Assembly (NCBI RefSeq): GCF_900142395.1
Contig: NZ_FRAS01000010.1
Coordinates: forward strand, 1 to 64,000
DNA length: 64,000 bases
Direction of reading: 5' to 3'
Source: Hymenobacter psychrotolerans DSM 18569
GTDB taxonomy: Bacteria; Bacteroidota; Bacteroidia; Cytophagales; Hymenobacteraceae
Made by a program: the position numbers and the translations under genes. The stretch's first letter is position 1; each line of letters opens with the position of its first letter. Below the pieces are notes generated by a model that saw only the letters and a program-made list of their open reading frames with translations, was not told where the DNA came from and searched no databases. Positions 17,844-21,005 of this stretch are shown piece by piece.

Positions 17844-18818
17844 ATGCGACGCATTAAGCTTCTGGAAGTCCGCTCCGAGCTGGGAGCCGGGACCCGTGGT
17901 GCCAGTATGGGCGTAGATGCCCTGAAAGTGGCCTGCCTCAACAAAGGGTCCGACTACTTCCGTCGGTTCAACTCGGTGAATGTGCCGGACCTGAACCACG
18001 TGCTCTTCGAGAAAAACCATTTTCCGAAGGCCAAGCACATCGATTCTGTCTATACAGTGCAGAAAAATATTGCCAGCACCGTGGAGCAGACGCTCCGCTT
18101 CGGCGAGTTTCCGCTGGTGCTGGCCGGCGACCATAGCAACGCCTCCGGCACTATTGCGGGCATCAAGGCGGCCTATCCGCACAAAACGCTGGGCGTAGTC
18201 TGGATAGACGCCCACGCCGATATTCACTCGCCCTACACCACGCCCTCGGGCAACATGCACGGCATGCCGCTGTCCATCAGCCTCGGCGACGACAACCGCG
18301 AGTGCCAGCGCAACCAGCCGGAACCCGAAACCGAGTTTTTCTGGCAGAAGCTGAAAAACCTCGGCGAGCCGGGCCCCAAAATCGCGCCCGAGCACCTCGT
18401 GTACGTTGTCGTGCGCGATACGGAGGCTGAGGAAGACGCCGTAATAGAGCGGCTGGGCATCAAAAATTACAAGCTCGACGAAGTGAAGGCCAAGGGTACC
18501 CGCCAGGTGGCCCGCGAGATTTATGAGCGGCTGCGCTTCTGCGACATGGTCTACATCAGCTTCGATGTGGACTCGCTGGACTCGCGCTTCTCGAAAGGCA
18601 CCGGCACGCCCGTGGTAGACGGCCTGAACGTGGAAGAAGCCATCAGCCTGTGCCGCGCCCTGCTCGACAACGACCGGGTGGTGTGCTTCGAGATGGTGGA
18701 AATCAACCCCACGCTCGACAATATGAACACCATGGCGACCAACGCCTTCGATATTCTGGAAGCCGCCACCGACGCCATTCAGAACCGGCTGCGTATGGAG
18801 GAAGTAGTGAGCCGCTGA
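17844..18818 (+). CDS. Arginase / ureohydrolase family protein
   Basis: A 324-residue manganese enzyme of the arginase-agmatinase family. All metal-binding motifs are present: AGDHSNASG (H97), DAHADIHSP (from residue 122) and SFDVDSLDS (D241, D243), plus the EINPTLD segment with Glu286. The family hydrolyses arginine to ornithine and urea, or agmatine to putrescine and urea. The overall sequence looks more like arginase. Because it diverges from an arginine decarboxylase, agmatinase activity is a real alternative. Three 22-bp-phased palindromes begin directly after its stop codon. Confidence 0.88.
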   Translation: MRRIKLLEVRSELGAGTRGASMGVDALKVACLNKGSDYFRRFNSVNVPDLNHVLFEKNHFPKAKHIDSVYTVQKNIASTVEQTLRFGEFPLVLAGDHSNASGTIAGIKAAYPHKTLGVVWIDAHADIHSPYTTPSGNMHGMPLSISLGDDNRECQRNQPEPETEFFWQKLKNLGEPGPKIAPEHLVYVVVRDTEAEEDAVIERLGIKNYKLDEVKAKGTRQVAREIYERLRFCDMVYISFDVDSLDSRFSKGTGTPVVDGLNVEEAISLCRALLDNDRVVCFEMVEINPTLDNMNTMATNAFDILEAATDAIQNRLRMEEVVSR

Positions 18819-18884
18819 TGACATAGTGATGTCACCACCGTGACATAGTTATGTCACAGGTGTGACATAACTATGTCACAGAAA
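18819..18884. repeat. Three palindromes in exact 22-bp phase
   Basis: TGACATAGTGATGTCA (18819-18834), TGACATAGTTATGTCA (18841-18856) and TGACATAACTATGTCA (18863-18878) start exactly 22 bases apart. Each is a palindrome with arms of 6-9 bp. Copies 2 and 3, each extended by one flanking G and C, are exact reverse complements of each other and could also pair as one 18-bp stem. No T-tract follows. The two-turn phasing favours an operator array over a plain terminator. Confidence 0.85.
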
Positions 18885-19211
18885 AGCGCCGGTAGGTCTG
18901 GCCGGTGACCTGGCGGGGCTGCTCTTGCGGGCGGCAACTTTTTCCGGTGGCTTCCGGCCGGGCTTTCTACCTTTGTAGCCGCAGCGGCCCGGCGTGGCTG
19001 CAGCGCTAAGTGCTTATGAAACCGGTTTTTTGGCAGCTTCTTTGGCGACGAATGTAGCGTAGGCTTCGGCTGGCGCAGGTGAGCCGGTACGCTTCCACGC
19101 GAGGCGCGCTGCTACCGGCCCGGCAGATGCTTACGCCCTTCCGCTGCTTCCGCCTGAAATCGACTTATTCCGAAGCCTGCAGCCGGCTTCATCCTCCGCA
19201 TTCTGCTTTCC
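18885..19211 (+). other. Gap and long leader before argS
   Basis: After the palindromes this non-coding stretch holds one good promoter element (18968-18975). About 236 bases of GC-rich sequence then run to the argS start. No tRNA-like, T-box or other known leader structure was recognised. Confidence 0.5.
18968..18975 (+). promoter_or_regulatory. -7 element TACCTTTG upstream of argS
   Basis: Exact consensus match on the plus strand. It lies 90 bases beyond the palindrome array and 237 bases before the annotated argS start. Confidence 0.62.
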
Positions 19212-21005
19212 GTGCAACAACTCGAACAAACCCTCAAAGCGGCCCTTGGGGCAGCTATTACGCATGTATTCGGCACCGAGGTGCCCGCCGCTCAACTTAC
19301 GCTGCAGCCCACCCGCAAGGAATTTGCGGGGCAGTTTACACTCGTCACGTTCCCGTTCACCAAGGCGCTGGGCAAAGGCCCCGAGCAGATTGGGCAGGCC
19401 GTGGGCGAGTGGCTGGTAGCCAACGAGCCGCTGGTATCGGGCTACAACGTGGTAAAAGGCTTCCTCAACCTCGAAATTGCCGATGCTGAGTGGGTGAACG
19501 TCTTCAATGCGCTCCGCCAGGCGCCGGCCGGCGCGCCCATCCCCACCGGTGGCCCCCAGAACGTGGTGGTAGAGTATTCGTCGCCGAATACCAACAAGCC
19601 GCTGCACCTGGGCCACTTGCGCAACAACTTCCTCGGCTACTCGGTGGCCGAGATTCTGAAAGCTACCGGCGCCACCGTCACGAAAGCCAACCTCGTCAAT
19701 GACCGGGGCATTCACATCTGCAAATCCATGCTGGCTTACCAGCAGTACGGCCACGGCGAAACCCCGCAGAGCGCCGGCATCAAGGGCGACCATCTGGCCG
19801 GCAAATACTACGTGCTGTTTGAGAAGCACTACCGCGAGCAGGTGCGCCAGTTGGAAGCCGAAGGCGTGCTGCCCGACGTGGCCAAGCGCCAGGCCCCGAT
19901 GATGCTGGAAGCCCAGGACATGCTGCGCGCCTGGGAGGCCGGCGACGAGGAAGTGGTAAGCCTCTGGCGCCAGATGAACGGCTGGGTGTACGAGGGCTTC
20001 GATGCTACTTACCAGAACATCGGCGTCGATTTCGACAAGTATTACTACGAGTCGGGCACGTACCTGCTGGGCAAGGAGCGGGTAGAGGAAGGCCTGCAGA
20101 AAGGCGTGTTCTTCAAGAAAGAAGACGGCTCGGTGTGGGTGGACCTCAAGGAGGAAGGCCTCGACGAGAAGCTCCTGCTCCGCGCCGACGGTACCAGCGT
20201 CTACATCACCCAGGACCTGGGCACGGCCGAGCTGAAGTACCAGGATTTCGGCTACGATTTGAGCGTGTACGTCATTGCCGACGAGCAGAACTACCACATG
20301 CAGGTGCTGAAGGCGGTGCTTAAGAAGCTGGGCAAGCCCTACGCCGATGCCATCTACCACCTCAGCTACGGCATGGTGGATCTGCCCTCGGGCAAGATGA
20401 AAAGCCGCGAAGGCACCGTGGTAGACGCTGACGAGCTGGTGCGCGAAGTGGTGGAAGCCGCCAAAGCCGCCACCCTCGAAAAAGGCAAAACCGAAGGCCT
20501 CTCCGACGACGAGCTCGGCCAGCTCTACCACATGCTGGGCCTGGGCGCGCTGAAATACTACCTGCTGAAAGTCGACCCCAGGAAGCGCATGCTCTTCAAT
20601 CCCGAAGAGTCGGTGAAGCTGGAAGGCGACACGGGGCCGTTCATCCAGTACTCGCACGCCCGGATTGCCGCCATCATGCGCAAAGCCGCCGAAATGGGTA
20701 TTTCTTCGGACGCTGATCTTAGCACGCTCACCGAGTTGCCGGCTGCGGCGCGGGAGATGGTGCAGGAGCTGGGCCGCTACCAGAGCGTGGTGCAGGAAGC
20801 TGCCCGCACGTTCTCGCCGGCTGTGGTGGCGCAGTATGCCTACGAGGTGGCCCGCGCTTACAACCGCTTCTACGCAGAAGTCCGGATTTTCCTGGAACCC
20901 AACGAAACTACCCGCGCCTTCTACGTGGCCCTTTCGGCCCAGACCGGCCAGACCATCAAGGCCAGCATGGGCCTGCTCGGCATTCAGGTGCCGGAGCGTA
21001 TGTAA
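19212..21005 (+). CDS. argS: Arginyl-tRNA synthetase
   Basis: A 597-residue class I synthetase that charges tRNA-Arg. Domain order: N-terminal additional domain (1-100), catalytic Rossmann core with NTNKPLHLGHLRNNFLG carrying the HIGH motif (HLGH) near residue 130, GKMKSREGTVVDADEL in the KMSKS position near 398, and the C-terminal anticodon-binding domain ending ASMGLLGIQVPERM. Length is normal for the family. The start is GTG at 19212, where family homology begins. A strong terminator follows. It sits next to arginase and arginine decarboxylase genes. Confidence 0.97.
   Translation: MQQLEQTLKAALGAAITHVFGTEVPAAQLTLQPTRKEFAGQFTLVTFPFTKALGKGPEQIGQAVGEWLVANEPLVSGYNVVKGFLNLEIADAEWVNVFNALRQAPAGAPIPTGGPQNVVVEYSSPNTNKPLHLGHLRNNFLGYSVAEILKATGATVTKANLVNDRGIHICKSMLAYQQYGHGETPQSAGIKGDHLAGKYYVLFEKHYREQVRQLEAEGVLPDVAKRQAPMMLEAQDMLRAWEAGDEEVVSLWRQMNGWVYEGFDATYQNIGVDFDKYYYESGTYLLGKERVEEGLQKGVFFKKEDGSVWVDLKEEGLDEKLLLRADGTSVYITQDLGTAELKYQDFGYDLSVYVIADEQNYHMQVLKAVLKKLGKPYADAIYHLSYGMVDLPSGKMKSREGTVVDADELVREVVEAAKAATLEKGKTEGLSDDELGQLYHMLGLGALKYYLLKVDPRKRMLFNPEESVKLEGDTGPFIQYSHARIAAIMRKAAEMGISSDADLSTLTELPAAAREMVQELGRYQSVVQEAARTFSPAVVAQYAYEVARAYNRFYAEVRIFLEPNETTRAFYVALSAQTGQTIKASMGLLGIQVPERM

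Follow-up and report, generated by a model that had tools for sequence, protein, structure and literature searches.

Palindrome arrays phased at 22 bp accompany HU-HIG genes in Hymenobacter and other Bacteroidota

Background

Dimers of the HU family bend DNA. Plasmid iterons and ParB-parS systems are site arrays for a protein that is encoded next to them, and some iteron sets have a spacing of about two helical turns; iterons are direct repeats and not palindromic. The arrays described here likewise adjoin a gene whose protein may use them as sites, but they are palindromic, and no gene for Rep or ParB was recognised. Among palindromic repeats, REP sequences co-diverge with their cognate TnpAREP proteins (PMC8266576). 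In P. gingivalis the HU protein PG0121 has been described as similar to E. coli HU, with a preference for distorted DNA structures (PMC3969353).

The present analysis concerns an array behind an arginase gene in a window of 64,000 nucleotides (the whole stretch of DNA that was analysed), together with its 4.76-Mb genome, 120 Hymenobacter genomes and further Bacteroidota.

Results

The array behind the arginase gene

The features of the locus are the following.

17844..18818, plus strand: arginase gene, 324 aa, whose stop TGA (18816-18818) abuts the array; identity read from the sequence
18818..18835, no strand: unit 1, ATGACAT-AGTG-ATGTCAC, imperfect 18-bp dyad that starts on the final A of the arginase stop codon
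18840..18857, no strand: unit 2, GTGACAT-AGTT-ATGTCAC, perfect 7-bp arms around a 4-bp core
18862..18879, no strand: unit 3, GTGACAT-AACT-ATGTCAC, reverse complement of unit 2 with the 22-bp phase kept
18918..18943, plus strand: terminator-like hairpin with a T-run, between the array and the -7 element; weak consensus match
18968..18975, plus strand: TACCTTTG, -7-like element facing argS, 90 bp past the array
19212..21005, plus strand: argS, 597 aa, next gene downstream; identity read from the sequence, with no family search

The original prediction had described three 16-bp palindromes in an exact 22-bp phase, and they are present exactly so: TGACATAGTGATGTCA (18819-18834), TGACATAGTTATGTCA (18841-18856) and TGACATAACTATGTCA (18863-18878). 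It was also correct that the first begins straight after the arginase stop codon, that the second and third are reverse complementary and that a -7 element faces argS 90 bp beyond the array, TACCTTTG at 18968 matching the Bacteroidota -7 consensus. Its statement that no T-tract follows had overlooked the hairpin and T-run at 18918-18943, a weak consensus match of which 0.7 are expected in shuffles. At up to two mismatches the window contains six strand-matches to the motif, every one inside the array, against a mean of 0.22 and a largest value of 2 in shuffled sequences. The array is thus beyond chance.

A second array behind the single HU-HIG gene

The genome-wide search for the palindrome and its 22-bp phasing that had been proposed was run with TGACATN4ATGTCA. 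It returned only the window array and one more (C43:179164-179223), and the reversed control pattern returned none. The second array has three units in a 22-bp phase, the middle one degenerate, and begins a few bases past the stop codon of this gene:

C43:179234-179668, minus strand: HU-HIG gene, 144 aa, the single HU-HIG of the genome, outside the window; PF18291/TIGR01201

The protein is a clear member of the HU-HIG family, with 111.1 bits against PF18291 (cut-off 26.2), covering positions 1-124 of 125, and 82.2 bits against TIGR01201 (HU_rel; cut-off 68.6). Its AlphaFold model is poor (pLDDT 61) and has helices and strands in an HU-like order. At both loci of the genome the stop codon is followed by the array and the array by a GC-rich hairpin, the window hairpin being the weak terminator match given above. 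A single element at C42:20867 (L301), relic-like in BLAST, was considered as an array relic and rejected because it shows no phasing.

Distribution across Hymenobacter

Pairs of ACATN4ATGT in a 22-bp phase were found in about 14 of the 120 Hymenobacter genomes; the reversed control patterns gave almost none. Both the arms (GTG..CAC, CGG..CCG, AAG..CTT, AAA..TTT) and the 4-bp core are variable. An array is also present in the public record of H. aerophilus DSM 13606. Gaps occupied in several species are the HU-HIG 3' end, the region upstream of rlmD, the recQ 3' side, a DIFPDK gene, an RNaseD-type convergent gap and an ABC-permease gap; these gene names, except HU-HIG, were read from the sequence and not obtained by family searches.

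The HU-HIG ortholog is rare, being present in 16/120 genomes, and in 16/16 of these three palindromic units phased at 21/22 bp lie 3' of the gene. The units are of the ACAT type in 8/16, and in the other eight they are of the AACTCATN4ATGAGTT, ACTCTTGCSCAACAGT, AAACCCGCCGGGGTTT, AAAATCCGCCGGGATTTT, AAATCGACGGGACC and AAAAGGTCCCGATGAGTT types. A de novo detector that uses phase and dyad symmetry alone (threshold score 44) gave at least 44 at 15 of the 16 loci, with a period of 22 in 13 and of 21 in 2. None of 88 control loci (transposase, arginase and ordinary HU loci) reached 44, their maximum being 40; L167, the locus of the window array, is left out of this count, and L240 and L246 had been moved post hoc from the ordinary HU controls as HU-HIG matches over the whole domain with 23-bp arrays. 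HU-HIG and ACATN4ATGT arrays co-occur among the 120 genomes (p=1.2e-9), also when trans arrays alone are counted (p=2e-7) and when related genomes are collapsed (p=7e-4). Three Hymenobacter genomes have arrays and no HU-HIG ortholog (G003, G061, G078), and these arrays are assumed to be relics.

Some further arrangements were observed in the genus. The gap upstream of rlmD (L053, L058, L060, L064, L072, L343) contains layered inverted repeats of the types ACAT, ACTCTT, AAATCG, AAAATCC and GCGAACTACAAAGTTCGC, which look as if successive array types had piled up. In many Hymenobacter genomes (G011, G039, G041, G048, G049, G074, G088, G089, G115) the gene downstream of HU-HIG and the array encodes an AAA-type ATPase (ENVRSFGEKQTISF..ILGDNGVGKTTVLKAL). 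One and the same ABC ATPase/permease gap holds an array in G011, G089 and G115 (L338, L340, L348), with units made of two different half-sites.

Array sequence, HU-HIG protein and cognate copies

The unit sequence follows the HU-HIG protein rather than the species. Across 15 species, array distance is related to HU-HIG distance after removal of arginase distance (partial Mantel r=0.50, p=0.0002), and it shows no correlation with arginase (species) distance given HU-HIG. Between G000 and G007, arginase differs by 3% and HU-HIG by 33%, and the arrays are unrelated. Residues flanking the beta-arm vary with the array type: SFSVSLQ/VKVVF (ACAT), SFRVTLR/VNVSF and SFFTTLK/VxVKF.

Furthermore, a pooled query of the HU-HIG-adjacent arrays from 13 species was searched against 23 genomes. 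Trans arrays usually match the genome's own HU-HIG array, as in G011, G089, G048, G076, G167, G371, G404 and G543; Hymenobacter is mixed, and in the four non-Hymenobacter genomes (G167, G371, G404, G543) 22/22 listed trans loci match. One own-type and one other-type array were found in G067, the match in G115 is of a type that belongs to a different species, and arrays of the G048/G076 type occur besides ACAT in G041, G049 and G050. G048, G076 and G067 retain ACAT arrays that mismatch their own HU-HIG type. The gap upstream of rlmD holds the own HU-HIG type in G067 and the ACAT type in G041, G048, G049, G050 and G076. Matches in G002 and G013 were at E=0.2-0.3 only, and the search of four HU-HIG-less genomes (G091, G070, G079, G097) returned no array.

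Arrays beyond Hymenobacter

In G167, which belongs to another family, four copies of AAAAGCTN4AGCTTTT lie behind the HU-HIG gene. Phased arrays also adjoin HU-HIG in G320, G543, G404 and G371, and with a 23-bp phase in G163 and G214. In total 10/31 non-Hymenobacter HU-HIG loci have phased arrays, a count that excludes L271 and L283, which pass the detector through 27-bp and 20-bp repeats alone. The other 21/31 score below 44 or pass through such unrelated repeats only; several of the negative loci bear weaker 22-bp arrays and many bear none. In records of Parabacteroides distasonis and Bacteroides finegoldii, HU-HIG belongs to a cluster that comprises a gene of the replication type, a small DUF gene, HU-HIG itself and usually an amidase, and in 4/8 records the replication-type gene has 22-bp-phased dyads at its 3' end, with detector values of 40-45 in a longer scan window that are individually marginal.

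The array lies on the 3' side of HU-HIG in Hymenobacter, G167, G320 and G543, and just upstream of it in G371 and G404; G371 also has arrays in two divergent gaps (L316, L320). The commonest position is the 3' end of a gene. A strictly 3' position was rejected on account of the two divergent gaps and the upstream arrays outside Hymenobacter.

Other loci were noted during the searches. G543, with four HU-HIG genes (L328-L334, L262, L278), mixes several unit types in one phase. In G404 (L322-L327) every array is bounded by the terminal inverted pieces AATCCTTGT..ACAAGGATT, which enclose roughly three units and give it the outline of a MITE. More 22-bp-phased arrays of the GACAT type occur in the Bacteroidales MAG RGIG6215 (L082-L084), in Prevotella RUG536 (L079) and in an IMG/VR contig (L110); an HU-HIG gene was not recognised in the listed parts of L079 and L082. 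The IMG/VR matches to the relaxed pattern were set aside, since most of them repeat a single, unrelated region of prophage; dozens of prophage contigs (L095 and similar IMG/VR loci) have one region in common in which two ACATN4ATGT palindromes stand at a 22-bp spacing, and this seems to be an unrelated case.

Discussion

Proposed binding of HU-HIG dimers to cognate dyads

The explanation that we prefer, with a probability of roughly 60%, is that HU-HIG dimers bind cognate dyads as sequence-specific sites phased at two helical turns, and thereby form nucleoprotein nodes at gene boundaries, that of their own gene included. The window array would be a trans copy of the repeat that is cognate to the single HU-HIG protein of the genome. 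The dimer would recognise both half-sites of the 18-bp dyad (here GTGACAT), the 4-bp core being unconserved, and the 22-bp phasing would set neighbouring dimers on one face of the DNA, so that three units could nucleate a compact, bent complex of several dimers. Such nodes would occupy the HU-HIG locus and a small number of further intergenic sites, most of them 3' ends of genes; they may have a local architectural or boundary role and may exert feedback on HU-HIG. Protein and repeat would switch specificity jointly, and arrays of the old type would linger as relics.

A DNA site for a dimer is favoured by the dyad arms with their unconstrained 4-bp core, by the two-turn phasing and by the lack of a GU bias (see below). 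What the data show is the phasing, the match of arrays to their own HU-HIG type, the co-occurrence and the co-divergence; binding, stacking on one face, the boundary role and feedback are inferred from these. The evidence for a sequence-specific protein/site pair is indirect and consists of the co-divergence and the cognate match. HU proteins are mostly not sequence-specific, which counts against this reading, as do the 21/31 negative loci outside Hymenobacter, the three genomes with arrays and no ortholog, and the arrays that mismatch their genome's own type. Given the upstream arrays of G371 and G404 and the two in divergent gaps of G371, the putative role is called boundary or architectural and not termination. 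More tentatively, HU-HIG proteins in general may be phylum-wide HU relatives with a private, diversifying specificity and dedicated 22-bp-phased dyads at their own gene and a few chromosomal sites, a co-evolving system of protein and DNA address that has no described counterpart.

Alternative explanations

The main rival is a REPIN-like family of mobile palindromes in low copy, with HU-HIG as a hitchhiking or accessory architectural protein of mobilisation and not as the user of the sites. It would account for the repeat type common to the HU-HIG gene and the scattered copies, for the patchy distribution of the gene and for the fact that neighbouring units are often inverted copies, their cores being reverse-complementary in 16/53 neighbours where 3.2 are expected; the terminal inverted pieces common to the G404 arrays also fit it. 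However, the copies per Hymenobacter genome are few (two arrays here), neither an empty site nor a target duplication was found, and no match to the Y1/HuH transposase (PF01797) was obtained in G048, G049, G061, G076 and G078, of which G049 is a single contig with several arrays. A RAYT/Y1_Tnp protein as mobiliser was rejected, since it is absent from several array-bearing genomes. Moreover, arrays recur at the rlmD, recQ, DIFPDK and ABC-permease gaps across species with changed sequence, and recurrence at the same gaps with altered sequence fits maintained sites better than fresh insertions. We regard mobility as an unlikely explanation, although one to be taken seriously.

That the arrays act as 3'-UTR hairpins in RNA, stabilising the mRNA or aiding termination, is quite improbable. 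The position between stop codon and terminator-like hairpin and the RNA fold (z = -6.9) agree with such a role, but good folding is expected of any inverted repeat, the Rfam search gave no match, and some arrays occupy divergent gaps or, in G371 and G404, the upstream side of HU-HIG. The transcribed strand has 21 GU versus 28 AC among its non-Watson-Crick pairs, with no bias towards the RNA strand, and this comparison leaves the structural 3' hairpin, named originally as an alternative, unsupported.

A slightly lower probability still is given to an absence of function, with slippage and template switching keeping chance tandem palindromes perfect. Neighbouring copies are indeed inverted, and arm shuffling within arrays accounts for most of the arm pairing (0.757 observed vs 0.695, p=0.015), but the link with HU-HIG, the cognate match and the co-divergence with the protein are left unexplained.

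Finally, an arginine-responsive operator for argS or arginase, suggested by the position in an arginine gene cluster and by the -7-like element 90 bp downstream, is hardly credible, as the identical repeat type lies behind the HU-HIG gene and the arginase 3' gap contains such an array in 0/29 of the closest relatives examined, so that an arginine or argS role is not supported. In many of these relatives the gap is filled by other genes or other inverted repeats. Absence of the motif from this gap was the outcome that the original prediction had itself named as speaking against it. Its idea of phased dimer sites survives in part: the dyads have the appearance of dimer sites at a spacing of two helical turns, and this phasing is seen again at orthologous sites in further species and, across Bacteroidota, next to HU-HIG genes, but the link to arginine is lost.

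Comparison with known systems

A cognate repeat array for HU-HIG was not described in the open literature searched. HU proteins are the textbook case of non-specific binding. The HU relatives studied here seem to be paired with DNA addresses of their own, and these can keep their genomic positions even as their sequence changes along with the protein. Should binding be borne out, the arrays would offer many natural protein/site pairs for the question of how the HU fold gains and switches specificity, and a possible explanation of phased palindrome arrays in Bacteroidota, gut species included.

The P. gingivalis capsule locus, with PG0121 and a 77-bp inverted repeat, is likewise a case of an HU protein with a large inverted repeat nearby in Bacteroidota, and differs in that its inverted repeat is single (PMC3969353). 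The REPtron or REPIN-RAYT systems share more with the HU-HIG arrays: the gene adjoins a repeat type that also occurs dispersed through its genome, the repeat diverges together with the protein (PMC8266576), and the repeats are extragenic and often 3' of genes. Unlike the HuH nuclease of the REPtron, HU-HIG is a DNA-binding protein of the HU superfamily, a clear PF18291/TIGR01201 member in the genome studied here, and Y1_Tnp is missing from several array-bearing genomes. The arrays are also few per genome, whereas REPtron repeats are in high copy; they have a strict 22-bp tandem phasing, and the GTAG/CGTC tag was not seen. Nothing in the open literature searched matches this combination, which is the logic of the REPtron with a different class of protein, a low copy number and tandem phasing.
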